Source: an uncultured Olsenella sp.
GTDB taxonomy: Bacteria > Actinomycetota > Coriobacteriia > Coriobacteriales > Atopobiaceae
Assembly: GCA_900314495.1 (NCBI GenBank)
Contig: OMVJ01000009.1
Span: 1 to 64,000, forward strand
Direction: 5' to 3'
Length of the DNA: 64,000 nucleotides
The notes under the pieces were generated by a model. That model was not told where the DNA came from. It ran no database searches and worked only from the letters and a program-made list of their open reading frames with translations. The position numbers and the translations under genes are program-made. Of this stretch, positions 16,400-42,050 are shown piece by piece (position 1 is the stretch's first letter; each line of letters opens with the position of its first letter).

Positions 16400-16433
16400 A
16401 ACCACAAATCACATACGTAATATCATGACGCTT

Positions 16434-20436: not shown

Positions 20437-21819
20437 TTAGTCCTCGTCCGGCTTCTCGTAGTACTCGTCCAGCATGGCGTCGGAGATACGCTTGAGCTCG
20501 GAGCGAGGCAGGATGCGGAGGAGCTTCCAGCCAAGGTCGAGGGTCTCCTCGATGGAACGGTCCGTGTTGTAGCCCTGCGACACGTACTCGGCCTCGAACT
20601 CATCCGCGAACTTGGCGTAGAGGAGGTCGATGTCGGTAAGTGCGGCCTCGCCCAGAATCGTCATGAGTTCCTTGGCGTCCTTGCCGCGCGCGTAGGCGGC
20701 GAAAAGCTGGTTCATGGTCGCCGCGTGGTCGGCGCGGGTCTTGCCCTCGCCGATGCCCTTGTCCTTGAGTCGGGAAAGCGACGGCAGGACGTTGACGGGC
20801 GGCTGGATGCCCTTGGAGTAGAGGTCGCGGGACAGGATGATCTGGCCCTCGGTGATGTAGCCGGTGAGGTCGGGGATGGGGTGCGTGATGTCTTCCTCGG
20901 GCATGGTAAGGATGGGGATCAGGGTGATGGAGCCCTTCTTGCCACGCTGGCGGCCGGCGCGTTCGTACAGGGTCGCAAGGTCCGTGTACATGTAGCCGGG
21001 GTAGCCACGACGGCCCGGGACCTCCTTGCGTGCGGCGGAGACCTCACGCAGAGCGTCGGCGTAGTTGGTGATGTCCGTCATGATGACCAGGACGTGCATG
21101 TCCTTCTCGAAGGCCAGGTACTCGGCGGCGGTGAGGGCCATGCGCGGCGTGGAGATACGCTCGACTGCCGGGTCGTTGGCCAGGTTCTCGAAGAGGACCG
21201 TACGGTCCAGGGCGCCCGTCTCCCTGAAGGAGGACTCGAAGAAGTTTGCCTCCTCGTAGGTGATGCCCATGGCCGCGAAGACAACGGCGAACTTGTCGTC
21301 CGTGCCGCGGACCTTGGCCTGGCGGGCAATCTGGGCGGCCAGCTGGTTGTGGGGCAGGCCGGAGGCAGAGAAGATGGGCAGCTTCTGGCCACGAACCAGC
21401 GTGTTCAGGCCGTCGATGGCGGAGACGCCGGTCTGGATGAACTCTGCCGGGTACACGCGGGCGGCGGGGTTCATGGGCAGGCCGTTGATGTCCATGCGGG
21501 CGTCGGGCAGGATCTCCGGGCCACCGTCGATGGTGCGACCCAGGCCGTCGAACACGCGCCCAAGCATGTCCTCAGAGACGCCAAGCTCCATGGCGCGGCC
21601 CAGGAAGCGGACCTTGCTGTTGGAGAGGTTGATGCCCGTGGAGTCCTCGAAGAGCTGGACCATGACGTTGGGACCGTCGACCTCAAGCACCTTGCAGCGG
21701 CGAACCTCGCCGTTGGCGAGCTCGATCTCGCCGAGCTCATTGTAGGTGACGCCCTCGACGCCCTTCACGAACATAAGGGGGCCGGCGACCTCCTCGATGG
21801 TGCGATACTCTCTTGCCAT
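20437..21819 (-). CDS. ntpB: V-type ATPase subunit B
   Basis: This 460-residue non-catalytic head subunit carries the family signature [19 protein letters not shown] and lacks an intact P-loop, as expected. It alternates with subunit A in the hexamer. Its ATG overlaps the ntpA stop as TAATG, so the two are translated together in the 1:1 ratio needed. Confidence 0.97.
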
Positions 21820-23594: not shown

Positions 23595-23621
23595 TGAGTG
23601 TTTCACCTTCTTATCTGTGAA

Positions 23622-23951
23622 TCAGTTCTTGCCGAACAGGATGTCGCTGCCGACGGACTGCTCGACGGAGTGCTTGACGGACTCGATGCCGTAGCCGGTG
23701 TTGTTCTTCACGCCCGGAATGGGAATGACCGCAGGCAGCGGCTTCGCGCTGAGGGCCGACACCTGGTCCCACAGGGAGGCGGCCAGCTCCTCCGTGATGT
23801 AGACGATTCCGTAGCGGGCGTCTTCCGACGTGATGCTCCGGAAGGTGCTTGCCGCCTCGGGCGTGCCTGGCTCCACGGGGAACAGGTCGAAGCCCACGGC
23901 ACCGAATCCGTAGATGCTGTCGTAGTCACCGATGACGGCGATCCTATCCAT
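23622..23951 (-). CDS. V-type ATPase subunit F
   Basis: This 109-residue protein begins MDRIAVIGDYDSIYGFGAVG and contains YGIVYITEELA, the usual marks of subunit F, which binds the D shaft. Its start lies 8 bases inside the 3' end of ntpC. The Enterococcus operon calls this position ntpG. Confidence 0.93.
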   Translation of the reverse strand: MDRIAVIGDYDSIYGFGAVGFDLFPVEPGTPEAASTFRSITSEDARYGIVYITEELAASLWDQVSALSAKPLPAVIPIPGVKNNTGYGIESVKHSVEQSVGSDILFGKN

Positions 23952-24915
23952 ACATCTCACGCATCCTCTCCAGTGTCTGCTTCTCGCTGAAGCCGTTGGT
24001 CTTTGCGGTCACGATGATTCGCACGTTGCGGACCTCGTTCTCGCGAGCAAGGTAGTAGGCAACCACGGGACCCACCGAGGTGCAGTTGGTCTTCTGGGGC
24101 TTGAGGGCCTTGATCAGCCTGTTGTCGCACCAGCGCTCGAACTCGGAGTTGGAGACCCTCAGGGCCTCCGCCGCGTCCTTCAGGCTGGAGGACTCCAGGT
24201 ACTTGAGCAGGTCCTCCTCGCCGTGGACGGCCGCCTGCGCCAGCTTGCTGGCACTGACCTCCCGGCTGGGCGCCAGGGCCTGCTCAACGAAGTGCAGGTC
24301 CTTGCCGGTACGCGCGCAGCGCACGGCAATCTTGATGTCCGAGCTGGAGACGTTGGCCTCGCAGTAGTCTATGAGCACCTGGCTCTTGGTGCTCTTGGCC
24401 GCCTCCAGCATGTCGAGCAGGCAGGCCTTGTCCAGGATGACGTCGCACCACTGGCCGTTGCCGGTCTGGGACATGATGTCGAAGGCGTGCTGCGCGGGCT
24501 TGCGCATCTTCTCGGGCAGGACGCCCAGGTTCTGGTCAGTGAAGGCCTTGTACAGCACGTCATGGCCAAAGTTGGGCAGCTCGTAGAAGGCCGTGGGCAC
24601 CTTGTTGCCAGCGCAGATCTCCTTGATGATGCACTTGAGGTTGTGGTAGTAGCGCGGCATGGTCAGGACGTCGAAGACGGCCTGATCCACCCTCAGGTCG
24701 TGCATGAGCTTGAGGGTCTTGTTCTGCTCGTAGGCAAGCAGCTGGTCGGCGTCGAGCTGGCCGGAGCCGTCGCCCCACCCGCGGTCCTCGAGGTAGGAGA
24801 CCACGGACTTGGCGTCCTTCATGGAGCACATCTGCTTGATGTCGTCGTCGTTCAGCAGCCCCCTCTCGAGGACCCTAATGCGGGCGACGGCGAATATGTA
24901 GTCGCTATCCCTCAT
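23944..24915 (-). CDS. ntpC: V-type ATPase subunit C (d-type rotor cap)
   Basis: This 323-residue helical protein links the shaft to the membrane K ring. The start MRDSDYIFAVARIRVLERGL at 24915 is the family N-terminus; the open frame upstream is arginine-rich shadow sequence. The ATG is 5 bases after the ntpE stop and the 3' end overlaps the F gene. Confidence 0.93.
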   Translation of the reverse strand: MRDSDYIFAVARIRVLERGLLNDDDIKQMCSMKDAKSVVSYLEDRGWGDGSGQLDADQLLAYEQNKTLKLMHDLRVDQAVFDVLTMPRYYHNLKCIIKEICAGNKVPTAFYELPNFGHDVLYKAFTDQNLGVLPEKMRKPAQHAFDIMSQTGNGQWCDVILDKACLLDMLEAAKSTKSQVLIDYCEANVSSSDIKIAVRCARTGKDLHFVEQALAPSREVSASKLAQAAVHGEEDLLKYLESSSLKDAAEALRVSNSEFERWCDNRLIKALKPQKTNCTSVGPVVAYYLARENEVRNVRIIVTAKTNGFSEKQTLERMREMYG

Positions 24916-24919
24916 TCGC

Positions 24920-25516
24920 CTACACCTGCCACAGCGTCTTCTGGACCGCGTCCTGCATCTTGTCGCGATACTGCGCGAACAGGGCATCAAGCGTGCAGTT
25001 CTCGTCGATGCCGCCATAGCGCAGGATGAAGCCGTCCTTTATGTCCGCCGGCTCCTTGCCCACCTTGAGGCTGCCGCCAGCCGCTTCCGCGGCCTTCTGA
25101 AGCTCGGCCTCGAAGCCCTTGGGCAGGCGCGCAAGGTCTGCGGCAGAGAACAGGATGGTGCCGGCATTGGGCTCCGCGTGCGTCTTCACCAGGTCCACCA
25201 GCATGGAGAAGTACTGCTCGGCCGGGAGGGCGGCAAGCTCTTCCTGCGCCTTCTGCAGCACGACGGAGATGATTCCCTGACGCCAGGCAAGCTTCTCCTG
25301 GCGGTCCTCCATCTGCTGCCTGGAGACCAGGCGCTGCTCGTGCTGGGCCTTCTCCACCTCAAGACGCCTCTCGGCGTCCCTGGCGGTCTTCTCGGCGGAC
25401 GCTTGCGCGGACGCGATGGTCGACTCCGCATCGGTGCGAGCAGCATCCAGCAGCTCCTGCGCGCTCTTGTTCGCATCCTGCAGAATCTCTGATGTGATTG
25501 CGTCTATACCCGCCAT
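24920..25516 (-). CDS. ntpE: V-type ATPase subunit E (peripheral stalk)
   Basis: This 198-residue protein has a long N-terminal coiled coil (SAQELLDAARTDAESTIASA onward) and a C-terminal globular domain ending in DGFILRYGGIDENCTLDALF, the subunit E pattern. With the small H/G subunit it forms the stator stalk. GAGGAGAGA precedes the ATG at 25516. Confidence 0.93.
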   Translation of the reverse strand: MAGIDAITSEILQDANKSAQELLDAARTDAESTIASAQASAEKTARDAERRLEVEKAQHEQRLVSRQQMEDRQEKLAWRQGIISVVLQKAQEELAALPAEQYFSMLVDLVKTHAEPNAGTILFSAADLARLPKGFEAELQKAAEAAGGSLKVGKEPADIKDGFILRYGGIDENCTLDALFAQYRDKMQDAVQKTLWQV

Positions 25517-25579
25517 ACTCTCTCCTCTCTCATGAATCGAATCCCGCAATGCGCCAACTGGCAAGTCGTTGCTTGACGA

Positions 25580-28082
<2,503 letters not shown>

Positions 28083-28625: not shown

Positions 28626-29780
28626 TTAGCTCAGGTAACCTGCGTCCTTCAGGACGTCGCGGGCCTTGGCCTCGTTGGCATCGCTCACCAGGATGACGGG
28701 GCCGGTGCAACCCATGCCGGTCTCGGCGTACATGCCGGCCTTCCACAGGGCCTGCGCGGCGTCGTCCAGATCCATGACGTCCACGCCCAGGATGCCAGCA
28801 GGAACGGGCTCCGCGGGAGGAGCGACAACCTCCTCCTTGGGGCCGGCGGCGGCAGCCTTCTTGGCCTCCATGGCGGCGATGATGTCGTTCAGGCCGGCCT
28901 TCTCGGCGGCGGCGTACTCAGCCTCAACCTTTGCGAAGACCTTGTTCTTCACGAGCTCGGCCGCGAAGACCAGGGCGTTGGCGATGACGGGGGCGCCGGA
29001 GGCACGGGACACGATGAGCACGAGCTTCTCGTAGCCCTTGCCCACGCCGGGGCCGTAGCCATAGCCAACGGACTCGAAGGAGCCGCCGGTCGTGAAGGAG
29101 GACAGCATCTTGTTCAGCACGTTGCCGGTCAGAGGATCGGTAACCAGGACGTCGGGGGTGCCCTTCAGGACGTCGTTGCCGCGCAGGACACAGCCGCCGT
29201 CGGCGCGGGAGGACTCGGCGAAGTCGAAGTCGTAGCCGCCCTCCTGCAGCTGCTTGAGGGCCTTCTCCACCTGGCGGGCACCGTTGACGTTCAGGATGCC
29301 CACGGTCGGGCGCTCGATGCCCGTTGCCTTGGCAACCGCGAGGCCGTCGATGGCGTTGTAGATCATGCCCTCGACGGGGTCAGACGCGGAGGTGCCAGTG
29401 GTGTTGGCAACGAACATCTCCTTGCCAACGGCCGGGGTGACGGGACGGCCAACGGTGGAGACGCCGATGGGGAACGGGTAGTGCATGGTGACGGCGCCGT
29501 CAATCTCGCCGGAGTCGAGAAGCTCGTCCATCTTCTTGTGGCCGGCCTCGTCGTCATCCACGTGGATGGTGGTGATGCCCTCATGCTCGAGAGAGCCAAT
29601 GTAGTAGACGTCGACGCCCTTCTTGGAGGCAGCGACGGCCGCGGCCATCGCGTTCTCCTCGCCGTGCTCGGAACCCATGCCAGTGAGGGCGATCTTGGGG
29701 CGCGGGCCGAAGGAGCCGCTCTCAAGACCGTCTGCCATCTGCATGAAGGCGTCGGCGAGAGTCTTCTGGAGGTTGCTCAT
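28626..29780 (-). CDS. grdD: Glycine reductase complex C, subunit GrdD
   Basis: GrdD (384 residues) is the alpha subunit of protein C, which with GrdC takes the acetyl group from carboxymethyl-selenoprotein A and releases acetyl phosphate. It belongs to the PlsX-like fold family (KIALTGMGSEHGEENAMAAA) and has a proline/alanine linker near residue 325. It starts 14 bases after grdC with GGGGAGG upstream. Confidence 0.93.
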   Translation of the reverse strand: MSNLQKTLADAFMQMADGLESGSFGPRPKIALTGMGSEHGEENAMAAAVAASKKGVDVYYIGSLEHEGITTIHVDDDEAGHKKMDELLDSGEIDGAVTMHYPFPIGVSTVGRPVTPAVGKEMFVANTTGTSASDPVEGMIYNAIDGLAVAKATGIERPTVGILNVNGARQVEKALKQLQEGGYDFDFAESSRADGGCVLRGNDVLKGTPDVLVTDPLTGNVLNKMLSSFTTGGSFESVGYGYGPGVGKGYEKLVLIVSRASGAPVIANALVFAAELVKNKVFAKVEAEYAAAEKAGLNDIIAAMEAKKAAAAGPKEEVVAPPAEPVPAGILGVDVMDLDDAAQALWKAGMYAETGMGCTGPVILVSDANEAKARDVLKDAGYLS

Positions 29781-29794
29781 TGCTCAGACCTCCC

Positions 29795-31333
29795 CTACTC
29801 GGCCTGCTCGAGCAGAGCCTTGGCGAAGTCGCGCATGGTGGAGGCGATCATGCTCTTGACCTCTTCCTCGGACACGCCAGCGTTGTCGCCCTGGCCGTCG
29901 TTGGCCTCGATGAGGAAGGAGACGCCGTCGAAGAGGTTGGTCATGCGGCCCAGGAACAGGGAGCCCTTGCCGATGATCATGACGCGCTTCCACTCGCCGG
30001 CCATGATCTTGTTGCGGGCGTGGCCGATGATGGGCACACCAGAGGGGATGTGACCCTGGGTGGGGGCGAAGCCCTGCAGGCCGTGCTCCTTGACGAAGGC
30101 AGCCATCTGCTTCTTCTCGATCTGGCCCTTCTTCACGCCCAGGGCGCCGATCATCTTGAAGTTGGCCAGAGGCACGTCACCAGCGCCACCCGGCTTGGTG
30201 ATGTCGGGGTTCTGCATCTCGGGCGAGAACTTGTCTACGTCCATGACGGAAAGGCCGGCGGCCTCCAGCGGATCGTAGACGAGGGAGCCGATGACCTGCT
30301 GAGGAGCGGAGCCGGTGCCCACGGAGACGCGGCCCAGGTGCTCCAGGTTGATGACGGGGCTAACGCCGTCGTCCTGAGTGATGATGAAGCAAAGGCCGCC
30401 GATCATGTCCTCGAGCGCGGGCAGGCCCTTCTTGACGTGCTCCTTGCCGTTCATGCCAAGCTTGGCGGTGCAGCCACCGGCGGTGACGGCAACGGTCTTG
30501 TAGGCACCCGCGGCAACCAGGGAGGCAGCCTCGATGAGGGTGTGGGTGGGGGCGGCGCAGAAGCCACGGGCGTCGGAGCCGGTGGCGTTCACAAGGCCGG
30601 CGATCTCAGCAGCGGCCTTGGCGAAGTTGCCACCACCGCGCTGGTTCATGTCGCCGCAGGCCTCCTCGGAGCAATCGATGACGTACTCGATGTCCTCCTT
30701 CTGGATGCCGGCGTTCTTGATGCCGTGGAGCAGCGCGAGAACAGAGGACGCCTTCTCGACGATGTTCTCGTGCATGATTTCCGCAGAGAGGTTATGGTCC
30801 ACATCGTGGGCGCGGCAGACGCAACCCACGAGCTTGTTGTCAATGTAAAGACCCTCAGAGGCCTCCTCGGCAACGAGGCGCTCGATCTCGGCGTGATCCG
30901 TCGCCGCGGGGACACGGGCGATGATGGACTCGTCAATCAGCGGGTCGGCAGCGAGCTTATCCTTGGTGGCCTCGATGAACTCGCCATCAACCTTGACGAG
31001 GTCGAAGACGTCGCAGGCAGCCATGAGGAGGGTGAACTCGTCCTCGGGCATAATCTCGCCGAACTGGCCGTAGCGGTCGCTGCAGCCGCAATCCTTGTCA
31101 TACCAAGGGAACGGGAGCTCGTCCAGATCCTCGGGCACCTTGTTGCCAATGTAAACCTGATTGGGCAGGTAGTTCAGAGTCTGGTCATAGGTGCGCAGGT
31201 GGTTCGGCAGCTCCTTCAGGTAATCGCTGCCCGGGTTGACGACGCGCTCGGTAGTCTGAGTGGTGCCGTTCCAGATGACCATATCGGGCGTGTGCGCCAG
31301 AACAAAGCCGGCACCCTTGATGACGCTCTTCAT
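29795..31333 (-). CDS. grdC: Glycine reductase complex C, subunit GrdC
   Basis: GrdC (512 residues) is the beta subunit of protein C. Its second half resembles ketoacyl-synthase-type thiolase folds, with a candidate active cysteine in ARGFCAAPTHT and the glycine-rich GTGSAPQQVIGSLVYDPLEA. It lies after a strong terminator that follows grdA, so it may depend on read-through or a separate promoter. Confidence 0.93.
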   Translation of the reverse strand: MKSVIKGAGFVLAHTPDMVIWNGTTQTTERVVNPGSDYLKELPNHLRTYDQTLNYLPNQVYIGNKVPEDLDELPFPWYDKDCGCSDRYGQFGEIMPEDEFTLLMAACDVFDLVKVDGEFIEATKDKLAADPLIDESIIARVPAATDHAEIERLVAEEASEGLYIDNKLVGCVCRAHDVDHNLSAEIMHENIVEKASSVLALLHGIKNAGIQKEDIEYVIDCSEEACGDMNQRGGGNFAKAAAEIAGLVNATGSDARGFCAAPTHTLIEAASLVAAGAYKTVAVTAGGCTAKLGMNGKEHVKKGLPALEDMIGGLCFIITQDDGVSPVINLEHLGRVSVGTGSAPQQVIGSLVYDPLEAAGLSVMDVDKFSPEMQNPDITKPGGAGDVPLANFKMIGALGVKKGQIEKKQMAAFVKEHGLQGFAPTQGHIPSGVPIIGHARNKIMAGEWKRVMIIGKGSLFLGRMTNLFDGVSFLIEANDGQGDNAGVSEEEVKSMIASTMRDFAKALLEQAE

Positions 31334-31395
31334 TTCTTGCAGTCCCCTTTTCCTGTATCAGTCCTCCGGCCCCATGCCGGAAAGAATGCGAAGTA

Positions 31396-31434
31396 CGAAA
31401 AAGGAGGGGTGTCGACCCATGTCGGCACCCCTCC
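31396..31434 (-). terminator. Intrinsic terminator after grdA
   Basis: On the minus strand a 14-bp stem (arms 31421-31434 and 31403-31416, one G-U) with a 4-base loop is followed by TTTTT. This is a textbook terminator inside the grd cluster. Confidence 0.9.
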
Positions 31435-31447
31435 CCAGGAAGTGCTT

Positions 31448-31924
31448 CTAGTCGAGGTACTTGCAGTAGTCGTCGCGGACAGCCGTCATCTCGTCACGAA
31501 TGTCGTCGAGATCGAGAACCATCTCCATCATGGAGACCTGGTCATCGTAGACGTCCTCAGGAATCTCTGCCTTAACCTCAGGCTCGCAGACGTGGTAAAC
31601 CGTGAGTCCCAACTGGACCCCAGTCAACGGACCTGCGAAGGTCGGGTCGCCATTGGTGACGGTCTCAGCCGTCAGACCAGCGCCCTCGCCGTCAGCGGTA
31701 CCAAGGATAACGGTAACGTTCTCAGCGCCATACTGCTCTGCGAACTCCTTGACACGCTTCTGGTTCTCCAGGTCCATTGCACCTGCAGCCGTTCAAACGA
31801 AGCACTCGGTAGGCGCGAAGATCACTTCGCCACCGGCCGCTTCGGCACAAGCCTTGATGGCATCACCGGGGACACCATCACGGTCACCGATAGCGATGAC
31901 CTTCTTTCCCTTAAGAATGCTCAT
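31448..31924 (-). CDS. grdA: Glycine reductase selenoprotein A, GrdA
   Basis: GrdA (158 residues) is the small selenoprotein that carries the carboxymethyl group between proteins B and C. The N-terminus [20 protein letters not shown] leads to TECFVU with Sec44 encoded by TGA at 31795-31793, then [11 protein letters not shown]. Cys41 and Sec44 form the CxxU redox pair. Stopping at the TGA would leave only the fragment from 31777. The ATG at 31924 follows AAGGGAG. Confidence 0.97.
31769..31795 (-). promoter_or_regulatory. Sec UGA and SECIS-like hairpin in grdA
   Basis: After the UGA and 7 bases, CAGGT-GCAATGG-ACCTG (31785-31769) forms a 5-bp stem. Confidence 0.6.
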
Positions 31925-32004: not shown

Positions 32005-32328
32005 TTAGAGGTACTTCTTGATCATTGCCTCAACGTTCTCGGGCGTGGCGTCATCCTTGACGCACTCGTCCACCTTCTCGCCGTTCTGGTAAATGGCGAT
32101 GACGGGGAGGCCCAGAATCTTCTGGCCGATGGCCAGACGACGGGCCTTGGTGGTGTTCAGCGAGCAGAACTTGATCTGGTCGCCGTACTTGTCAGCAAAG
32201 CCGTGGATGTGCGGCATGAGGGCGGCGCAAGGAACGCAGCCGTCACCGAAGAAGTCAACGAGGACGGTACCCTCAGCCTGGAGGACCTCGGGCTCAAACG
32301 TCTTCTTATCAACCTCGAGCATGGACAT
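32005..32328 (-). CDS. trxA: Thioredoxin of the glycine reductase system
   Basis: This 107-residue thioredoxin has the active site GDGCVPCAALMP: a CVPC redox pair instead of CGPC. The same GCVPC site is known from the thioredoxin that serves glycine reductase in Eubacterium acidaminophilum. It should reduce the oxidised GrdA selenide-sulfide. It lies 23 bases after trxB. Confidence 0.95.
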   Translation of the reverse strand: MSMLEVDKKTFEPEVLQAEGTVLVDFFGDGCVPCAALMPHIHGFADKYGDQIKFCSLNTTKARRLAIGQKILGLPVIAIYQNGEKVDECVKDDATPENVEAMIKKYL

Positions 32329-32351
32329 GATGGAACTCCCTTTCTACTCTG

Positions 32352-33296
32352 TTACTTCAAGCTATCAATGTAGCGATAGGCGGCCTTGGCGGCAATTGCG
32401 CCGTCGGCGGCAGCCGTCACAACCTGACGCAGGCTCTTGGGCCTGACATCGCCGGCAGCGAAGACGCCGGGGACGTTGGTGGCCATGTCGGCGTCCGTGG
32501 GGATGTAACCACGCTCGTCGAGCTCCACCGCGCCCTTGACGACATCCGTGTTGGGCAGGTAGCCGATGAAACCGAAGAGGCCGAACAGGCCATCCTCAGG
32601 ATCGGCCTCGATGGTCGTGAGCTCACCGGTCTTGGTGTTCTTAACGATCATCTTGTTGAGCAGGTCGTCACCATCGACCTCCTCCACAACGGAGTTCCAC
32701 ATGAACTCGAGCTTCGGAGTCTTGAAAGCCTTCTCCTGGACGAGCTCGTCAGCGCGAAGCGCGTCGCGACGGTGAATAACGGTGACCTTACGAGCATAGT
32801 GAGTGAGGTACATGGCCTCCTCGACGGCGGAGTTGCCGCCACCGACAACGTAGACCTCGAAGTCCTCGAAGAAGCCGGCGTCGCATGTGGCGCAGAAGGA
32901 AATGCCGCGACCGACGAACTTCTCCTCGTTCTTGCAGCCGATGGGACGCGGGTGAGCGCCCAGTGCAAGAATGACTGCCTTGGCCTGGTAGTCGCCCTTG
33001 GTGCCGTGCAGGGTCTTGACGTCGCCGTCGAGCTCGACGGACTTGATGGTGTCGCTCTCACGTTGAGCACCAAACTTCTCGACCTGCGCGGTCATGCGAG
33101 CGATAAGGCTAGGACCGGACTCGCCCTCAAGCTTGGAGCCAGGATAGTTCTCGATCTCGTTGGTGATGGCAATCTGGCCACCATCCTGACCCTTCTCGAT
33201 GATCAGGGTATCAAGACGGTCCCTGCCGGCGTAGATGCCAGCGGCCAGGCCAGCGGGGCCAGCTCCAAGAATGATCAAGTCGTAGATCTTACCCAT
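32352..33296 (-). CDS. trxB: Thioredoxin reductase
   Basis: This 314-residue flavoprotein has the FAD motif ILGAGPAGLAAGIYA, the NAD(P)H motif VVGGGNSAVEEAM and the redox pair CATC. It passes electrons to the neighbouring thioredoxin. GAGGAG precedes the ATG. An 11-bp inverted repeat lies between it and grdB. Confidence 0.96.
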   Translation of the reverse strand: MGKIYDLIILGAGPAGLAAGIYAGRDRLDTLIIEKGQDGGQIAITNEIENYPGSKLEGESGPSLIARMTAQVEKFGAQRESDTIKSVELDGDVKTLHGTKGDYQAKAVILALGAHPRPIGCKNEEKFVGRGISFCATCDAGFFEDFEVYVVGGGNSAVEEAMYLTHYARKVTVIHRRDALRADELVQEKAFKTPKLEFMWNSVVEEVDGDDLLNKMIVKNTKTGELTTIEADPEDGLFGLFGFIGYLPNTDVVKGAVELDERGYIPTDADMATNVPGVFAAGDVRPKSLRQVVTAAADGAIAAKAAYRYIDSLK

Positions 33297-33373: not shown

Positions 33374-34711
33374 CTAGATCTTTACCTTGAACACGGTCTG
33401 TTCGGTAATCGGCGTCGCCAGAGCGTCCAGCGCGACACCAACGCGGTGGTAGCGAAGCTTCCACTGCTCTTCCTTCGGCGTCTCGGGATCGCCCAGGGGG
33501 TAAGGAATGGAGATGGTCGGCACGATGCGGTTCGCACCAACGGTCAGAGAGACCGGGGTGAGGTTGCACATGTGGACCACGGGGAAACCAGCGCGCTCAA
33601 AGACCTTAACCATCGTTGCACCGCAACGAGTGCAGGTGCCTCAAGTGGAGCCAACGATGATGCCGTCGACGCCGTCCTCCTTGAGGAACGGGATGATCTC
33701 GGCGGCCATGCGAGCGGCCTCGCCCTCGGTGGTACCAGTACCAACGGTGGAGTAGAAGTAGGGGTGCAGCTTGCCGATCTTGCCCTCCTTCTCGTACGCA
33801 CGCATGGCGTCGAGAGGCACGCAGACGTTGGGGTCAGCGTCGGCAGCAGCGGGGTCATAGCCGGCGTGAATGGTCTTGTAACCATTGGCAGCACGGTTGG
33901 GCAGAGCGTCGAGGCCGGAGATGTCGTAGCGGCCCCAGCGAGTGGCGGAAGCGGACTGGATGCGGTCCGGGTTGTCCACGGGGACGATGCCGCCAGTGGT
34001 CACCAGAGCGATGTTGGCCTTGGAGAGGTCAGCAATCGGGTCGGCGATAGGCACAACGTCCTTCTCGGGGATGATGAGCTCGGTCTGGTAGGGCTCACCC
34101 TTGATCTTCTTGCGCAGCATGTCGACGCCACGGAAGGCCGCAGTGTTCTCATGCTTGTTCTCCAGGAAGACCTCCTTGCGCATGCCGCGCGCGAAGTAGC
34201 CCTCGGCGTCAGCGCCCAGGGTGGGCTCGCCGTTGAGGACCTTGCAGAGGTACTTGCACATGGCAGGAACGTCCTTGCGCATCTTAGCAGCGGAGTTGCC
34301 GCCCTTGAAGATGATGACGTCCTTCTTGTACATGTCGACACCAGGGGTCTCGACGTTGAACGAGGTCACCGCGGGAACGTGGAAGTGCTCCTGGACGGCC
34401 TTGCAGATGGCGCCGCAGGCCACGGTGTAGCGGCCAGCCTGGAAGGCGGGGCCAGCCACGAAGGCGTCCATGGGCTTGTCCTTGATCATGTCGATGATGC
34501 GGGCAACGGCCTCATCGGTGTTGGAGCCCATGAAGTTGTCGCCGCAGACCACGGTGTAAGTGACGTGGGCGTCAGCCTTGGCCATAGCCTTGTCGATAGC
34601 CATGGTGGGGCCCAGGGTGCCCTCGACGATGTAGGGCTCGATGCCGGCCTTCTCCTCGCCACCAACGCCAGCGAAGAACTGGTTGATGTAGCAAATAATG
34701 GACTTGGACAT
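33374..34711 (-). CDS. grdB: Glycine reductase selenoprotein B, GrdB
   Basis: GrdB (445 residues) is the selenoprotein subunit of substrate-binding protein B. Sec357, encoded by TGA at 33643-33641, lies in VGSTUGTCTRCGAT, the UxxCxxC site. Downstream sequence continues to KVKI at 33374. Treating TGA as stop would split the gene into 356- and 79-residue pieces. It is 25 bases after grdE; AAGGAGG precedes its ATG. Glycine, sarcosine and betaine versions of protein B are similar, so substrate is not certain. Confidence 0.95.
33613..33643 (-). promoter_or_regulatory. Sec UGA and SECIS-like hairpin in grdB
   Basis: The UGA is followed after 11 bases by TCGTTGC-GGT-GCAACGA (33629-33613), a perfect 7-bp stem with a GGU loop, very like the Escherichia coli SECIS loop. 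Confidence 0.75.
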
Positions 34712-34736: not shown

Positions 34737-36059
34737 TTAGAATTCCTTCATGGTCTTGAGGGACGCACCAGAGATGTGGTCGCCGCAGAACCAGTTGTTG
34801 TCCTCCATGATGATGGAGCCGTCGTCGCGGGCAGACTTGCCCAGGATCTCGTCGTAGCCCCAGGAGCCAGACATGCCGTCGCGGTTCATGGCCTCGAGGT
34901 TGCCGATGACGGTCTTGCAGGCGGGAAGCTCGGTGAGCTCGCCCACGTTGCCGGTGGAGACGAGGGCGTTCATCTTCTCGTTCAGAACGACGAGCGGCTG
35001 GCCAACGCCGGTGCGGCCGTCGGACTCGTTGGAGATGCCCACGACGCCGATGCCGGCCTCCTCAAGGACGACCTGGCAGCGCACGTAGTCAGTGTCGGGG
35101 TTGCCGTAGCCCTCCTCGGTGACGATGGCATAGTCAACGCCCAGGTTGATGGCCATGTCGCGCACCATGATGGCGGAGCGCTCCTTCTGGTCAAGGGCGA
35201 CGTTGAGGTTGGACATGATGACGCCGACGAAGTTGTAGTCGATGCCGTCGTACTTGTAGAGCTCCTTGATGGTCGGGAAGTTCTGGAACTCATAGGTGGA
35301 CCACTTGGAGGAAGCAGGCATGAAGGAGCCGGAGATGATGGCGCCGTCGAAGACCTCGGTGGGGCTGACGTAGGTGGGGAGGAACTTGTTCATATCCCAG
35401 CCGTACCACAGGTCGTTGTAGCCGAGGGCCTCCATCTGGGACTGCGGCTGCAGCACGATGGCGACGTTGGGAAGATCGTTCTTCTCACGCTTGAGGATGG
35501 GGTCGAAGGTGTAGGACTCGGTCTCTGCAGGCTCGACGTCCTTGGCGATCTTGCCGATCCACTCGGCGAAGCGGTGACCAGCCCAACGGAGGGCATGGTT
35601 GCACTTCTGCTGCTCGTGGCGCTCGAACTCCTCGTCGGTGTCACCAACGAGGCAGATGTTGATGAGCTCGGACCAACGGGTGTGCTTGGCACCCTCGCCG
35701 CCCATGTCGATAACGCCGTCGCCGAAAGAGCCCCACTCCTTGCCAACCACGGTGACGCAGCAGCCCTTGAAGGCCTTCAGCTCGCCGTCGCCAGCGGGGA
35801 CGATGTCACCGGTGACACCCGGGAACAGCGTGCGGTCGTCCATGCGGACGCGCGGCTCGATGGTCTCGATGACGGGCACGATACGGGTGTCGTCACCAGG
35901 GTGCGCAATGACAATGTCCAGGTCGGTGATGTGGTCGTCCTCGCCCTTGAGGTAGGCGATGGCGGCCTCCTTGTCGATGGTGAGGATTCCGTCAGCGAAA
36001 GAGTTCTCGCTGCCCAGAACGACATCCTTGACAGGAATATTGCCGATTTCCAGCTTCAT
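34737..36059 (-). CDS. grdE: Glycine reductase protein B proprotein, GrdE
   Basis: GrdE (440 residues) is made as a proprotein and cleaved into the two other subunits of protein B, leaving a pyruvoyl group that forms a Schiff base with glycine. In Clostridium sticklandii the pyruvoyl precursor is Cys242. Here the corresponding stretch reads VFDGAIISGSFMPASSKW (residues 236-253) with Ser245 and no cysteine anywhere between 153 and 328. Serine is the usual precursor in other pyruvoyl enzymes, so processing may still occur. It heads the grd operon, 73 bases after a good promoter; AAGGAG precedes the ATG. Confidence 0.93.
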   Translation of the reverse strand: MKLEIGNIPVKDVVLGSENSFADGILTIDKEAAIAYLKGEDDHITDLDIVIAHPGDDTRIVPVIETIEPRVRMDDRTLFPGVTGDIVPAGDGELKAFKGCCVTVVGKEWGSFGDGVIDMGGEGAKHTRWSELINICLVGDTDEEFERHEQQKCNHALRWAGHRFAEWIGKIAKDVEPAETESYTFDPILKREKNDLPNVAIVLQPQSQMEALGYNDLWYGWDMNKFLPTYVSPTEVFDGAIISGSFMPASSKWSTYEFQNFPTIKELYKYDGIDYNFVGVIMSNLNVALDQKERSAIMVRDMAINLGVDYAIVTEEGYGNPDTDYVRCQVVLEEAGIGVVGISNESDGRTGVGQPLVVLNEKMNALVSTGNVGELTELPACKTVIGNLEAMNRDGMSGSWGYDEILGKSARDDGSIIMEDNNWFCGDHISGASLKTMKEF

Positions 36060-36461: not shown

Positions 36462-37745
36462 CTAGATCATCTCCAGGAAGGCTTGGATGCGGGTCTTGAG
36501 CTGACCCTCGTCCTCGGTGGAGTAATCAGTGGTGATGTGCATGTAGGGCACGTTGTTCTCCTGTGCGGTGAGCTCCATGCCGAAGGCCTCCATCTCGTAG
36601 ATGGTGCAGAACTGCAGGGAGCAGTCGATGATGCCGTCGGCGTTGAGGTCCTTGGCCATCTGCATGACGTCCTGCTCACGGCCATGGTTGGGCGTGAAGA
36701 TGGCGCACTGGATGTTGAAGTAGCGGTCGGCAATGTCGTCCAGCATCTGGTCCACGGTCTCGCCGGTCTCGGCAACCAGGTCCTTGTAGTAGCGGGAGCC
36801 GGTGCAGCACTCCTCGCCCACCACGACGCCGCCGGACTTCTCGATGATGTTGAAGAGCTTCCAGTTGGGCACTGCCATGGGGGTGCCGGTGTACAGGATG
36901 CGCTTGGCGCCCTTGGGGGCAACGCCCTCCCCCGCCGCGACGCGCTGCTCGCACTCGTCGCAGACCTTGTTGATGGCGTCAGCCAGGCGGACCGGGTCGT
37001 CCATGAAGGCAGCCTGGGTCAGCAGGAGGCTGTCGAGGCCAGAGATGGGCGTGGGATCCGCTGCGCGCAGCTTGGACAAGCGCTGGAGGGCACGACGCTT
37101 GTTGTTTGCCAGGATGATGCCCTCGTGCAGGGACTCGGGCGTGATCTTCTGGCCGGTCTCCTGCTCAAGGCGCTCCGCCAGACGGTGGATCTCGTTGCGC
37201 CACATCTGCTTGGTCTCGTCCGTGCGCACGTGCGGCACGTCCACGACGTACATGGGCTTCTGGGTGGCAAACCACTCGTAGGCCTTCTTCTTGCCGTCGC
37301 AGGTATTCTCGCCAATCACGAGGTCGGCGCTCTGGATGTAGGGGCACACACGGCCCAGGCGGAAGCCGGCGAAGCTCTTGATGAGCGGGCAGGTGTTGCG
37401 CGGCAGGTGCTTCTCAACCTCAGAGGTTGCGAAGTCGGCACCGGAACAAAGTCCGATGGGGATGCCACCGGCAGCCGTCACAATCTCCTCCGGCACGTAC
37501 AGGCAGAAGGAGCCGATGATCTTCTTGGCGGCACCAGTCTCCTTGGCGTCCAGCTTCTCCTTGATTTCCCCGGAGTGCAGGTTGGTGGCAAAGACGTTCA
37601 GGTAGTCGCACGCCTGGGGGCGGTTCTGCTGGGCCAGGAACATGTCACCGTACATCTGTCCAACCGCGCCAAGAAGCATGTCGTGCGCCTTGGTATCCAT
37701 GCCAAGGCTCTCCCACATGGGGTAGAAATCAACTTCCTCTGCCAT
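36462..37745 (-). CDS. HgdB/double-cubane-type Fe-S protein, copy 1
   Basis: This 427-residue protein belongs to the 2-hydroxyacyl-CoA dehydratase D-component superfamily. The motifs NTCPLIKS, VCPY and GENTCDGKKKAYE place it with the double-cubane cluster proteins rather than with dehydratases; further cysteines are in GEECCTGSRY and CSLQFC. Such proteins use an [8Fe] double-cubane cluster, energised by an ASKHA ATPase, to reduce small molecules; natural substrates are unknown. Start: ATG at 37745 with AGAGAGGA. The activator is encoded 2.3 kb away, divergently. A CAAACA-TGC-TGTTTG dyad at 37836-37850 lies upstream. Confidence 0.87.
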   Translation of the reverse strand: MAEEVDFYPMWESLGMDTKAHDMLLGAVGQMYGDMFLAQQNRPQACDYLNVFATNLHSGEIKEKLDAKETGAAKKIIGSFCLYVPEEIVTAAGGIPIGLCSGADFATSEVEKHLPRNTCPLIKSFAGFRLGRVCPYIQSADLVIGENTCDGKKKAYEWFATQKPMYVVDVPHVRTDETKQMWRNEIHRLAERLEQETGQKITPESLHEGIILANNKRRALQRLSKLRAADPTPISGLDSLLLTQAAFMDDPVRLADAINKVCDECEQRVAAGEGVAPKGAKRILYTGTPMAVPNWKLFNIIEKSGGVVVGEECCTGSRYYKDLVAETGETVDQMLDDIADRYFNIQCAIFTPNHGREQDVMQMAKDLNADGIIDCSLQFCTIYEMEAFGMELTAQENNVPYMHITTDYSTEDEGQLKTRIQAFLEMI

Positions 37746-37994
37746 TTTGAGTCCTCTCTCCTTGTGCTTGCGAAGGCTTGCGCCAGTGCTTGCCGCATTC
37801 CCCAATGCGACAACTTGACTTTATGGGTAAGAGACCAAACATGCTGTTTGACATGGGCAAACGGATTGCGGCCGTTCGCAAGTGTGGCATCAAAACGATT
37901 ACCTTATGCGCGCCTTAGCAAGCAGAATCGCGCACCGAATAGTTTACGAACCGCCGCGTTGCACAATCTCATCGCGTTTACTGTTGCAACAGCG

Positions 37995-38026
37995 AAGCCG
38001 CCCCGTCGCAAATGGCGGGGCGGCTT
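37995..38026. terminator. Hairpin after the TDT gene
   Basis: AAGCCGCCCCG (37995-38005) pairs with CGGGGCGGCTT (38016-38026), 11 bp. No U-run. A CTGTTGCAACAG palindrome (37981-37992) adjoins it. Confidence 0.6.
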
Positions 38027-38070
38027 GGTTGAGGCTGCCGTTCTATGCTGGGAAGCGTTGCAGGCGAGCC

Positions 38071-39000
38071 TTACGCTGCCTGCTTCTGTCCACCGAAGAT
38101 GTGCATGAGGAAGCGGACCAGGGCGTAGACAACCAGGCAGGCGGCCAGGATGGTCTCCACCAGGACGATGGGGGCCAGCCAGGGCGCGGGGGCCTCCAGC
38201 TTGGCCAGGCAGGCCATGGTCATCTTGAGGGCGATGGCCGTGATGACAAACGGGAAGGTGTAGGCCGCGTAGGAGGGGTAGAAGTTCTTGTCCTTCAGCA
38301 GGCCGGGCAGCTTGACCAGGACCATGATGAAGAAGACGGTGGCAACGACCTCCAGGCCAATGAGCAGGGGCTGGCTCTTGGGGGCAACGGACTGCACGTA
38401 GGCGGCAACGCAGAGGCTGGCCGGGGCGGTGCAGATGCAGAAGACGGGACGAGCGGGCACGGGAGGCTCGCCGACCTTGGTGTAGCGCATGTAGACCGCG
38501 ACGGAGATGGCGATAAAGGTGATCAGGCCGAACCAGAAGGTGAAGGCGCCGAAGGCCTCCATGCCGAAGGCGGGGGCGGAGACGCCGGCGACGGCGATTC
38601 CCACGTAGACGATGTACCAGCTGGGGAAGACCTGCTTGAGGTCGAAGTGGGCCACGAACTTGACCGTGAAGTACGCGATCAGGCCGATGTGCAGCGCAAC
38701 GGCAAACCACCAAATTCCCAGGCCAAGGCCCGCGGCCCCAAGGTACTGCTTGACGTAGGTGGCAAGCAGCATGAGGGCCATGGAGAAGGTGCCAGAGATG
38801 CTGGCCAGCATGGGGTTGGCCATGTTCTTCTTGAAGGTGTCCATGTCTGCGAAGACGCTGGCGATGAACAGGATGCCCAGAAGGGCGGAGATGATGCCGA
38901 AGCAGATGCGGATGCCCTCGCCGTAGGTTTGCAGCAGGTTGCCCAGGGCGGCGCAGCCGAGCATGACGCCCGTGATGGGCAGTGGAACTCGCTTAAGCAA
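38071..39000 (-). CDS. TDT-family anion transporter (TehA/SSU1-like)
   Basis: This 309-residue protein has about ten membrane helices with the TDT/SLAC1 repeat pattern, including VFPSWYIVYVGIAVAGVSAP. The family includes tellurite-resistance TehA, fungal sulfite exporter SSU1, malate carriers and plant anion channels. A TTG at 39000 is taken as start because AAGGAG lies 7 bases before it; the frame opens at a GTG at 39033 with no ribosome site. It follows the C_GCAxxG_C_C gene with a hairpin between. An anion such as sulfite is a reasoned guess. Confidence 0.85.
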   Translation of the reverse strand: MLKRVPLPITGVMLGCAALGNLLQTYGEGIRICFGIISALLGILFIASVFADMDTFKKNMANPMLASISGTFSMALMLLATYVKQYLGAAGLGLGIWWFAVALHIGLIAYFTVKFVAHFDLKQVFPSWYIVYVGIAVAGVSAPAFGMEAFGAFTFWFGLITFIAISVAVYMRYTKVGEPPVPARPVFCICTAPASLCVAAYVQSVAPKSQPLLIGLEVVATVFFIMVLVKLPGLLKDKNFYPSYAAYTFPFVITAIALKMTMACLAKLEAPAPWLAPIVLVETILAACLVVYALVRFLMHIFGGQKQAA

Positions 39001-39025
39001 TGAAGTACTCCTTCGCTCAAATGCC

Positions 39026-39051
39026 AAGCCCACTACCGGGGTAGTGGGCTC
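39026..39051. terminator. Hairpin between the redox and TDT genes
   Basis: AGCCCACTAC (39027-39036) and GTAGTGGGCT (39041-39050), a perfect 10-bp stem with a 4-base loop, no U-run. Confidence 0.55.
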
Positions 39052-39094
39052 CTTACCAACTAGTTATTCCGCCAGCGGTGAGAGGAACTACCGA

Positions 39095-39658
39095 TTAGCG
39101 GGTAACGGGGACGACCTCGGCGATCGGGGTCTTCTCGTACGGCTGGTCGCCGCCCTCGGTGCCCTCGTCCAGGTTCTTGATGCCCTCCTCGCGGCAGATG
39201 ATGGTGGCAACCTTCCAGGCGGAGAGGCCAGTGAACCAAATGCACTGCTCCTTGTGCTCGCCGTGGCCCATGTCGAACTCGCGGGTGAGGACGCGGCAGC
39301 ACAGGGCGTGCTTCTTGTTGGCCTCGCGGAACCAGTCGTGCAACTCGTGGGTCAGGCCCATGCAGCGGACGACCTTGGGGTCCTGGGGACCCTTCTGCTC
39401 CGTGCGGCCGTAGAGCAGGCCCAGGGCCGCGACGCCACCGTTGGCGGCACCGCAGATGCAGCCGGACTTGCCGACGCCGATGGACATGCCGGAGGTCATT
39501 GCAATAATCCAGTCGGGAACGTCAATCTTGAAGCTGTCAACGATGGCAGAAAGAACGGCCTCGTCGCAGAAGTAGCCACCCTTGTAGTAGCCCTCGGCAA
39601 GGCGCTCCACCTCGTGCGGGCTGACCTCGGTAACGTTAAGCGGGAAGTTCGTGGCCAT
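39095..39658 (-). CDS. C_GCAxxG_C_C family redox protein
   Basis: This 187-residue soluble protein has the pattern of the C_GCAxxG_C_C family: an early Cys in GGYFCDEAVL, then SGCICGAANGGVAALG, then Cys residues at VVRCMGL, HALCCRVL and QCIWFTGL. The family is predicted to be redox-active and often sits beside membrane carriers or molybdo/sulfur enzymes; no reaction is proven. GAGAGGAGA precedes the ATG. It is the first gene of the leftward unit controlled at 39708-39742. Confidence 0.82.
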   Translation of the reverse strand: MATNFPLNVTEVSPHEVERLAEGYYKGGYFCDEAVLSAIVDSFKIDVPDWIIAMTSGMSIGVGKSGCICGAANGGVAALGLLYGRTEQKGPQDPKVVRCMGLTHELHDWFREANKKHALCCRVLTREFDMGHGEHKEQCIWFTGLSAWKVATIICREEGIKNLDEGTEGGDQPYEKTPIAEVVPVTR

Positions 39659-40033
39659 TGCTGGTCTCCTCTCTCGTGCGCCCTCCCCCTGAAGGCGCTC
39701 CTCCTTAATACCCCATTGGGGTATCTTTGCGGAGCTTTTATAGCATGGGAAGTTTTACTAATCACTATGAAATTGCGCTCATTGCAGGAGGTCACGTGGC
39801 GGCGATGCGGCCAACGGCCGAAGCCCCGCCAGCGGCACATCCGCAGGCAGAAGGATGCCATTTTCGACGCGAAACATCATGAATGCAATGATTAGCGAAA
39901 ACGGACCCACTGAACTCCTGATGCGCCTGTTGCCAGACCGATTAGTTTTTCGCGATGTGGGTACCCCGCGCATAATGCAAGTGGCCACCAGAAGCCATTA
40001 CTACATTAGTAAGTCTCGTCCGAACGGAGCCGC
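39659..40033. other. Divergent control region of the double-cubane cluster
   Basis: The 375 bases hold a leftward promoter (TATAAA -10 at 39742-39737), the operator at 39708-39724, and on the right a CATAAT hexamer (39971-39976) preceded by GGGTACCCC (about 39957-39965), possibly the rightward promoter and a second half-operator. A 28-codon frame at 39796 has a good ribosome site but no other support. Confidence 0.6.
39708..39724. promoter_or_regulatory. CsoR/CstR-like operator
   Basis: ATACCCC-ATT-GGGGTAT is a perfect 17-base dyad of the C-tract/G-tract type bound by DUF156 (CsoR, CstR, FrmR) repressors. It lies just downstream of the TATAAA -10 (39742-39737), where bound repressor would block the leftward transcript. 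No DUF156 gene is present in the window. Confidence 0.65.
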
Positions 40034-40786
40034 ATGAGAAGCATTGGCATAGACATCGGATCCACGGCGACCAAGGTCGCCGTGCTCAACAACAACGAGC
40101 TGGAGCTCACGCTCCTGGCGCCCACGGGCTTCTCCAGCATCGAGGCGGCTCAGAAGGCAGCCGAGGAGCTCAAGGCACACTGCATCGACGTCGCGGACGA
40201 GAAGGTCGTGGCCACCGGCTACGGACGCATCGCCGTGCCCTATGCCCAGAAGGCCGTGACGGAGATCACCTGCCATGCCAAGGGCGCGTGGTGGCTCTTT
40301 GGTAGGAACGGCGTGGTCATAGACGTGGGCGGCCAGGACACCAAGGTGCTTGAGCTGCGCAATGGCATGCTCAAGAAGTTCCTCATGAACGACAAGTGCT
40401 CCGCCGGCACCGGCAAGTTCCTGGAGGTCATGGCCAACCGCATGAACGTGACCCAGCAGCAGCTTTCCGACCTTGCCGCCAAGGGCGAGAAGATCACAAT
40501 CTCCAGCATGTGCACCGTCTTTGCGGAGTCCGAGATCATCTCGCTCATCGGCCGCGGCGAGCCGCTGGAAAACATTGCCTCGGGCGTCATCGAGTCCGTG
40601 TGCAGCAAGGTGGTAGCGCTTGCCTCGCAGATTCCCGGCGACGAGTGCTTCCTCACCGGTGGCCTGTGCGACAACGAATACATTGTGGGCCGCCTGGCAG
40701 ACAAGCTGGGCAAGCCCGTCTCCACCCGGCCGGAGGCGCGCTACGCGGGAGCCATTGGGGCGGCTCTCGCCGGCCAGCGCCTGTAA
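40034..40786 (+). CDS. ASKHA ATPase activator (BcrAD/BadFG/HgdC type)
   Basis: This 250-residue protein begins MRSIGIDIGSTATKVAVL (phosphate-1 loop) and has VIDVGGQDTKVL (phosphate-2). The two cysteines that hold a [4Fe-4S] cluster at the dimer interface are in CSAGTGKF and SMCTVF. Such activators hydrolyse ATP to send low-potential electrons to a dehydratase or double-cubane partner. It is 67 bases before the second double-cubane gene and is the only activator near two partners, so it may serve both. Start: GGAGCCGC-ATG. Confidence 0.92.
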   Translation: MRSIGIDIGSTATKVAVLNNNELELTLLAPTGFSSIEAAQKAAEELKAHCIDVADEKVVATGYGRIAVPYAQKAVTEITCHAKGAWWLFGRNGVVIDVGGQDTKVLELRNGMLKKFLMNDKCSAGTGKFLEVMANRMNVTQQQLSDLAAKGEKITISSMCTVFAESEIISLIGRGEPLENIASGVIESVCSKVVALASQIPGDECFLTGGLCDNEYIVGRLADKLGKPVSTRPEARYAGAIGAALAGQRL

Positions 40787-40853
40787 GGCTCGCCAACCAC
40801 AATTCGGTCACACATATATATGTAATAGGCAATAGCCAGAGAGAGGGATCACC

Positions 40854-42050
40854 ATGCCAACCGCAACCGTTCTTCCCAACAGCACCACCGCCATCCCGGC
40901 GCCGCTGGACCTGCCCAAGAACTTCGAGGAGTACGACGAGTCGCGCCGCAAGAGCTTCATGCGCGTGCACGACTTCAAGCAGGCGGGCGGCCGTCTTGTG
41001 GGCACCCTGTGCAGCTATGCTCCGGCCGAGGTCATCGAGGCCGCCGGCGCGGCCTGCGTGGGCCTGTGCGGCACCAGCAACGCGCCCATTCCCGCGGCGG
41101 AGACCGTGCTACCCAAGAACCTGTGCCCGCTCATCAAGTCCACCTACGGCTTCGCGTTCACGGACCAGTGCCCCTACACCTACTTCAGCGACGTCATCGT
41201 GGGCGAGACCACCTGCGACGGCAAGAAGAAGATGTACGAGCTCCTGAACGACATCAAGTCCACCTACGTGCTGCACCTGCCCAACGGCCAGCTGCGCGAG
41301 CACGAGAAGGACGGCTGGTACGAGGAGGTCAAGGCCCTGAAGGAGAAGCTGGAGCAGATGTACGGCATCGTCGTCACCGACGACGACCTGCGCCAGGCGG
41401 TCCACAACCGCAACCTGTACCGCAAGGCCCTGCTTGACCTGTTTGAGCTGCAGGCCACCGACCCCTGCGCCATGACCTCCGTGGAGCTCATGAGCACCCT
41501 GCAGGCGGGCACCTTCGCCATGGATGTTGTCGCCCAGGCCGAGAAGATCGAGGCGCTGGTGGCCGAGCGCAGGCAGCAGCAGGCGGAGGGCAAGTCCGCC
41601 GTGCCCGCGGGTGCCAAGCGCATCGTGCTCTCCGGCTGCCCCGCGGGCGGCCTCATCAACAAGGTGGGCAAGACCATAGACCAGAACGGCGGCGTCATCG
41701 TCTGCCTGGACTCCTGCATGGGCGAGCGCACCAACTCCATGATGATTGACGAGGACGCGCCCGACATCCTGCGCGCCATTGCCGACCGCTACCTGCAGAT
41801 CAACTGCTCCGTCATGACCCCCAACAGCGGCCGCATGGAGAACACCCTGGCCATGGTGGAGAAGTACCACGCGGACGGCGTGGTGGACGCGGTGCTGCAG
41901 GCCTGCCACACCTTCAACCTGGAGAGCGTGCGCATGGGCCAGGCCATGGAGGAGCGCGGCATTCCCTACATGAAGCTGGAGACTGACTACTCCGACGGCG
42001 ACCTGGGTCAGGTGTCCACGCGCCTGTCTGCGTTCATAGAGATGATCTGA
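40854..42050 (+). CDS. HgdB/double-cubane-type Fe-S protein, copy 2
   Basis: This 398-residue protein is a diverged paralogue of the gene at 36462. It shares NLCPLIKSTYG, QCPY and GETTCDGKKKMYE. It differs in having SGCPAGG where copy 1 has TGTPMAV, and CLDSCMGER where copy 1 has GEECCTGSR, so the two may handle different substrates. Family and activator dependence are clear; substrate is not. AGAGGGATCACC precedes the ATG, and a strong hairpin follows the gene. Confidence 0.87.
   Translation: MPTATVLPNSTTAIPAPLDLPKNFEEYDESRRKSFMRVHDFKQAGGRLVGTLCSYAPAEVIEAAGAACVGLCGTSNAPIPAAETVLPKNLCPLIKSTYGFAFTDQCPYTYFSDVIVGETTCDGKKKMYELLNDIKSTYVLHLPNGQLREHEKDGWYEEVKALKEKLEQMYGIVVTDDDLRQAVHNRNLYRKALLDLFELQATDPCAMTSVELMSTLQAGTFAMDVVAQAEKIEALVAERRQQQAEGKSAVPAGAKRIVLSGCPAGGLINKVGKTIDQNGGVIVCLDSCMGERTNSMMIDEDAPDILRAIADRYLQINCSVMTPNSGRMENTLAMVEKYHADGVVDAVLQACHTFNLESVRMGQAMEERGIPYMKLETDYSDGDLGQVSTRLSAFIEMI

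Follow-up and report, generated by a model that had tools for sequence, protein, structure and literature searches.

Two double-cubane proteins at one end of a selenium island in an uncultured Olsenella and their probable role in selenium supply

What is the natural job of the double-cubane proteins (DCCPs), and why do two of them stand beside an anion channel, a redox protein and one ATPase activator in an uncultured Olsenella sp.? The window, i.e. the whole analysed stretch of 64,000 nucleotides, lies on contig OMVJ01000009.1 (C36) of a 2.8 Mb draft genome that is 99% complete. An open reading frame (ORF) check found all five genes with intact frames between 36462 and 42050. Here, we found that DCCPs are almost confined to selenium users and that those of the window share an island with selenium machinery, and we conclude from both that they probably help the cell to acquire selenium in usable form. 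An earlier, sequence-only reading had already named two diverged double-cubane paralogues, a TDT carrier, a C_GCAxxG_C_C (CGC) protein and an ASKHA activator, and all of these are present with family models over cut-off:

36462-37745, minus strand: DCCP1, clade-A double-cubane protein (NF040772, phmmer, tree, 8 invariant cysteines)
38071-39033, minus strand: TDT/SLAC1-family anion channel (PF03595, 1.2e-19)
39095-39658, minus strand: C_GCAxxG_C_C putative redox protein (PF09719, 1.3e-22; TIGR01909 over cut-off)
39659-40033: divergent intergenic region of 375 bp (sequence)
40034-40786, plus strand: ASKHA activator ATPase, CoA_E_activ (TIGR00241, 238 bits)
40854-42050, plus strand: DCCP2, clade-B double-cubane protein of the clade of E. 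coli YjiM (NF040772, tree, 8 invariant cysteines)

The two units indeed diverge across a gap of 375 bp, but the minus-strand unit does not end at DCCP1; it continues towards a glycine/betaine-reductase operon, whose GrdE gene starts 402 bp past DCCP1. The closest relative found is another uncultured Olsenella (G222, locus L007, Atopobiaceae). The sister genome does not keep the 375-bp intergenic region; a dipeptidase-like gene and an ATP-binding cassette (ABC) transporter stand there between the two units.

Both paralogues exceed the cut-off of 350 bits of the curated equivalog model NF040772 (double_cubane), with 476.6 bits for DCCP1 and 480.6 bits for DCCP2, and both match the Carboxydothermus DCCP structures 6eno and 7yyl (DCCP1 with E~1e-130 by phmmer) at identities of 48% and 39%, respectively. 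They are 36% identical to each other and each 24-27% identical to HadC and BzdN, while DCCP2 is 43% identical to E. coli YjiM. Could one or both be subunits of an (R)-2-hydroxyacyl-CoA dehydratase or a benzoyl-CoA reductase, with which they share the Pfam family PF06050? We regard this as extremely improbable and exclude it by score, conserved cysteines and phylogeny. The scores stay far below the cut-offs of these enzymes (HadC 108 of 700 bits, BzdN 84 of 454 bits), several of the eight cysteines that are invariant across DCCP rows (102-103 of 103) are missing from HadC and BzdN, and the tree places all 103 DCCP rows in one group with the dehydratases outside. DCCP1 falls into clade A with the Carboxydothermus DCCP (97*) and DCCP2 into clade B with YjiM, so neither clusters with acyl-CoA dehydratases, the outcome on which the sequence-only reading had staked its proposal; the tree was built with a quick method, and its root is unsure because the outgroup branches are long. 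In addition, the genome carries separate dehydratase-type genes on contig C31 (about 52-56 kb; also L003-L006), where two HGD-D genes precede a gene for a 605-amino-acid protein that fuses HGD-D with an activator; together they are probably its true 2-hydroxyacyl-CoA dehydratase-like system. (R)-2-hydroxyacyl-CoA dehydratases and class I benzoyl-CoA reductases thus have the fold family and the activator principle in common with DCCPs, but form a separate clade with missing cysteines and another function. The suggestion that the two copies differ in their cysteines holds for the remaining ones, while the family-invariant eight are all present in both. Two further cysteines of DCCP2, C262 and C284, are common in DCCP rows (75/103 and 61/103) and missing from DCCP1 and the Carboxydothermus DCCP; C262 is also found in YjiM. 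They could form an extra ligand or a selenium-binding site.

Is the DCCP linked to selenium use beyond this genome? We counted the DCCP, leaving out the activator, together with SelD in two samples. Among 300 Coriobacteriia genomes, with DCCP over cut-off in 116 and SelD (E below 1e-50) in 204, SelD occurs in 115/116 genomes with DCCP vs 89/184 without (Fisher p 7e-25). A Bacillota-type sample of 250 genomes centred on Tissierella, with a SelD background of 169/250, gave 78/79 vs 91/171 (p 8e-16). The contrast also appears between close relatives: in genus g30, DCCP is present in 29 of the 30 SelD-positive and none of the 10 SelD-negative genomes (p 1e-8), and among ten DCCP-holding genera of mixed SelD status DCCP is confined to the SelD-positive members in nine (stratified z 6.3). 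Since the contrast holds within genera, shared ancestry does not explain the link. Non-Coriobacteriia genomes with a DCCP2 relative encode SelD in 48 of 49 cases, and among 14 control genomes DCCP was found in E. coli and M. jannaschii only, the same two in which SelD exceeded its cut-off. Exceptions to the rule are G131, described below, G343, a metagenome-assembled genome, and G515, where SelD was not found and yet activator, DCCP2, YedF, SclA and Se carrier stand in a row (L138).

In the window, the grd operon and the sel genes continue downstream of DCCP1, so that the five-gene locus is one end of a selenium island. The window holds selA, selB, tRNA-Sec, selD, yedF, a Se/S carrier, a selenocysteine (Sec) lyase-like enzyme and a Sec-dependent betaine-type reductase operon; the DCCPs, the activator, the complete Sec machinery and the reductase all lie within one 33-kb stretch:

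34737-36059, minus strand: GrdE/GrdI-like reductase component B alpha (PF09338, 534.9 bits)
33374-34711, minus strand: GrdB/GrdH-like selenoprotein with in-frame UGA and a Sec insertion sequence (SECIS) at 33603-33640 (betaine_GrdH model; Rfam SECIS_4, 59.4 bits)
32005-33296, minus strand: thioredoxin reductase and thioredoxin of the grd operon (ORFs 32352-33296 and 32005-32328; 71% identical to TrxB/TrxA of grd locus L037)
28626-31900, minus strand: GrdA (Sec), GrdC and GrdD (NF040748, NF040746 and NF040747 over cut-off)
18046-19602, minus strand: BCCT betaine-type transporter (NF047988, 609.7 bits, cut-off 650; TIGR00842 over cut-off)
17565-17915, plus strand: Se/S carrier protein-like (former DUF3343), by selD (PF11823, 76.4 bits)
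16434-17474, minus strand: SelD with one in-frame UGA (TIGR00476, 387.8 bits with UGA read)
15143-16405, minus strand: GT4-family glycosyltransferase by selD (PF13439, PF13692)
14968-15064, minus strand: tRNA-Sec, selC (ARAGORN; Rfam RF01852, 71.4 bits)
13477-14955, minus strand: SelA (TIGR00474, 542.8 bits)
11504-13420, minus strand: SelB (TIGR00475, 343.7 bits)
10880-11497, minus strand: YedF (TIGR03527, 206.2 bits)
9607-10851, minus strand: cysteine desulfurase / Sec-lyase, SclA-like (TIGR01977 over cut-off; SclA 348 bits, under the 525 cut-off)

The SECIS of the GrdB/GrdH-like gene directly follows its UGA. With Sec read, the best subfamily of this protein is betaine reductase GrdH (NF040795, 754.2 bits, just under the cut-off of 775), which fits the betaine-type BCCT neighbour.

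The same association recurs in the neighbourhoods of relatives. We fetched 80 DCCP2 loci by similarity alone, each with at most 10 kb of flanking DNA on either side. A selD or yedF gene falls into this stretch in 26 of the 30 loci from Coriobacteriia (expected about 1.6% per locus) and in 6 of the 50 remaining ones (about 1.3% expected; p 5e-5). The usual Collinsella order on a single strand is DCCP1-DCCP2-activator-SelD-YedF-Se carrier-SclA (L008-L014), and operons joining DCCP, activator and selD with yedF, SclA or Se carrier also occur in L128, L134, L135, L139 and L148. G145 has a single island (L126, L127, L140) that runs SclA-glycosyltransferase-carrier-YedF-SelB-SelA-SelD-GrdD...GrdE and continues with TDT-CGC-activator-ABC transporter-DCCP2-DCCP1-YedE. 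G557, reached via the Bacillota-type sample, has YedE-DCCP2-activator-YedF-SelD-GrdA-GrdE-GrdB-BCCT-TrxB (L135) and thus shares GrdA, GrdE, GrdB and BCCT with the window. In G153, DCCP1, DCCP2, activator, CGC-TDT, grd, V-ATPase and selD are spread over about 50 kb (L177-L179). According to the tree, the selenium link extends to both old DCCP clades. The proposal that all five genes are conserved together is partly borne out: at least three further genomes of the Atopobiaceae (G222, G145, G153) have the full set, but the widespread core is the DCCP with its activator, often without TDT and CGC.

What do two DCCPs need one activator for? The activator reaches 238 bits with TIGR00241 (cut-off 125.4) and matches 1hux (E 2.8e-52) as well as 7yyl_E, the DCCP reductase (E 7e-37). 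It is the only one in the locus, as had been noticed, but the genome has more activator domains, one in the C31 fusion beside the two dehydratase-type subunits and one on C42. Loci with both DCCP clades hold a single A, a single B and a single activator in 36/36 cases, which upholds the idea of an evolutionarily stable paralogue pair; many of these loci come from closely related Collinsella-type genomes, and the pattern is also seen in L134 and L141-L144. The paralogues would either work together as one mixed enzyme or act on two different selenium substrates. The Carboxydothermus hydrogenoformans DCCP with its ATPase reductase (6eno, 7yyl) has the same eight cysteines and the same activator family; unlike that system, the Olsenella locus combines two deeply diverged DCCPs and one activator with a selenium island, a TDT and a C_GCAxxG_C_C protein. 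E. coli YjiM-YjiL resembles the DCCP2 locus in its clade and in having the activator alongside, but is a lone pair away from selenium genes.

The channel and the CGC protein form a second unit of the locus. The TDT reaches 71.1 bits with PF03595 (cut-off 27.9) and the C_GCAxxG_C_C protein 80.6 bits with PF09719 (cut-off 27). The TDT/TehA subfamily models TIGR00816 (27 of 237 bits) and PRK10764 (57 of 342 bits) were not reached, and because the SLAC1 Pfam family is the sole model met, the substrate is not assignable from the models. In nine genomes with Atopobiaceae TDT relatives of more than 50% identity, the CGC gene is always adjacent. G598, which has no DCCP match, carries the pair within YedE-SclA-CGC-TDT-carrier-SelD-YedF-SclA (L174); SelD-positive G277 has a DCCP1 pseudogene with a stop and a frame change (L183, C3:118234-119087) beside an intact CGC-TDT pair; and G205 shows no selenium gene around the pair within the fetched stretch (L171). 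From these three cases, TDT-CGC is a separable accessory with its own selenium link. We also considered the TDT of G210 and G277 as a new selenoprotein and rejected this, since the in-frame TGA sits upstream of the conserved start region.

Does the locus then reduce a small inorganic anion without selenium, such as a sulfur oxyanion, as the sequence-only reading had suspected? The TDT family includes sulfite and dicarboxylate carriers, and DCCP reduces small nitrogen compounds in vitro; Jeoung and Dobbek reportedly found in 2018 that it reduces acetylene, azide and hydrazine. Near the locus, however, we identified no genes of dissimilatory sulfur metabolism, the partner genes are selenium genes and not sulfur genes, DCCP goes with SelD in both large samples and inside genera, and TDT-CGC sits inside the selD-yedF operon of L174. 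We therefore give this explanation a very small chance. The underlying idea of a dedicated reductive system, with double-cubane proteins, one common activator and built-in transport, is supported, and the earlier observation is real but largely re-assigned from sulfur to selenium.

ASKHA activators spend ATP to drive electrons onto such clusters. Why would a cell pay this price for selenium? From textbook constants at pH 7, we calculated that the Se(0)/HSe- couple has a potential of -0.72 V with 1 M selenide, which rises to -0.57 V with 10 uM, while S(0)/HS- stands at -0.26 V and -0.12 V at the same two concentrations. Because the selenium couple lies beyond NADH and most ferredoxins and the sulfur couple does not, an ATP-driven step is plausible for selenide, but not for sulfide. 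With moderate confidence, we favour the reading that the five genes are the reductive part of the selenium-utilisation island, an ATP-driven low-potential reductase in selenium supply with TDT and C_GCAxxG_C_C protein as accessories. The activator would hydrolyse ATP and push electrons onto the double-cubane clusters, which would reduce incoming selenium (Se(0), selenite-derived or carrier/persulfide-bound) to selenide; YedF and the Se carrier would pass the selenide to SelD, the TDT would transport anionic selenium species, and the C_GCAxxG_C_C protein would relay electrons or bind selenium. A stricter version, in which the DCCPs turn selenium that is hard to reduce, e.g. Se(0), into the selenide that SelD uses, with A and B as one two-protein enzyme with one activator and the TDT carrying a selenium anion, we put forward only tentatively.

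Could the DCCP pair serve the Sec enzymes instead? It might give very low-potential electrons to glycine/betaine reductase or formate dehydrogenase, e.g. to rescue over-oxidised Sec. The grd operon follows directly on DCCP1 in the window and in G222, DCCP, activator and grd genes share common loci in L037, L135 and G145, and the DCCP-positive genomes of the Bacillota-type sample are nearly all SelA-positive. Many DCCP/selenium operons, though, have no adjoining grd or fdh gene (L128, L134, L073), and the nearest partners are selenium-handling genes rather than Sec enzymes. G538 has the operon DCCP1-activator-SclA-SelD-YedF (L139) with no SelA match in the genome, which favours selenium supply, as a single case and perhaps one of assembly loss. 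We consider such a service unlikely, if still worth weighing.

Reductive C-Se cleavage of methylated or other organic selenium compounds, which would free selenide, appears slightly less likely still. DCCP genes do occur in methyl-selenium gene clusters (PMC10418091), and NMT1-type ABC transporters lie by DCCP-activator in L047, L051, L052, L058 and G145, but no methyltransferase/corrinoid cluster was identified in the window and many DCCP/selenium operons have inorganic-type partners alone (SelD, YedF, Se carrier, SclA). The transporters that adjoin activator-DCCP2 in these loci (in G145 at L140:4142-6887) are of the NMT1/NitT-TauT type with cysteine-containing binding proteins, possibly importers of selenium compounds. 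Identification of the G145 transporter as SaoP/SaoA was rejected, its scores being far under both cut-offs.

Several observations weigh against a role in selenium supply. To our knowledge, no biochemistry ties DCCP to selenium. In the window, 19-25 kb separate the DCCP genes from selD, and grd is nearer to them; most Bacillota DCCP loci, like E. coli yjiM-yjiL, are away from selenium genes. Many SelD-positive genomes have no DCCP, which is thus not required for selenide supply in general. The co-occurrence counts do not tell selenium supply apart from a service to Sec enzymes: DCCP is present in 77/162 genomes with SelD and SelA vs 1/7 with SelD and without SelA (p 0.12). Finally, G131 (Atopobiaceae, L125, C14) has DCCP1 and activator, and neither SelD nor YedF was found; this genome may have lost selenium use recently, or its DCCP may work independently of selenium. 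In G159, a sister species, selD is about 25 kb from DCCP1. The E. coli pair and G131 also speak for DCCP as a general anaerobic reductase, whose selenium link comes from anaerobic life and shared islands only, both traits being common in anaerobes. The contrast between close relatives in g30 and the repeated operon fusion in distant lineages argue otherwise, and we hold this explanation to be improbable.

Three neighbours of the island deserve mention. A V-type ATPase operon (19708-28082, minus strand) lies between the grd operon and the BCCT and sel genes, as it also does in G153 (L178); it may use ATP gained from the acetyl phosphate of the reductase to build ion gradients that power betaine uptake. 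The GT4 glycosyltransferase gene, 28 bp from the selD reading frame, recurs by selD, yedF or DCCP in Coriobacteriia and Bacillota (L011, L013, L056, L065, L113, L124, L126, L129, L152, L179). The selenosugar synthase SenB was rejected as its identity (26.6 of 300 bits, a weak match); it is possibly an unrecognised selenosugar or other selenium-related enzyme. Two adjoining DUF3841 genes (7290-8676, minus strand) lie just beyond the sel cluster.

How much of this was known? Passages of Lin et al. 2015 (PMC5322559) describe the prokaryotic selenium-utilisation genes SelABCD, YedE, YedF, DUF3343 and Sec lyase, and the gene set of the window is of the same kind. A STRING table in that paper lists, for Slackia, a '2-hydroxyglutaryl-CoA dehydratase subunit' and a 'CoA-substrate-specific enzyme activase' as partners of YedE, YedF, LysR-like and DUF3343; the passages found there neither discuss these two genes nor name them as selenium candidates. 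We now identify them as DCCP and activator, tested across about 600 genomes. Type 1 mlp methyl-selenium clusters hold a 'dicubane cluster protein' and its reductase as putative selenium genes, with grd and sel, and the authors call the link provisional, citing PMC5322559 and Haft and Gwadz 2023 (PMC10418091). The DCCP-selenium link as such is therefore not new. Unlike those clusters, the window has no identified methyltransferase/corrinoid cluster, but two DCCP clades, one activator and the TDT-CGC pair. Not found in the literature searched are the large-scale test with within-genus contrasts, the joining of clades A and B under a single activator, TDT-CGC as a partner and the reasoning from redox potentials.

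In summary, two questions meet at this locus, namely the natural substrate of the double-cubane proteins and the source of free selenide for SelD in anaerobes, and because DCCP depends on SelD almost without exception in both large samples, a joint answer can be tested directly. If the selenium reading is true, cells would make a nitrogenase-like energy investment for the assimilation of a trace element, and selenium bioavailability in the anoxic gut would partly depend on an ATP-driven, nitrogenase-like enzyme.

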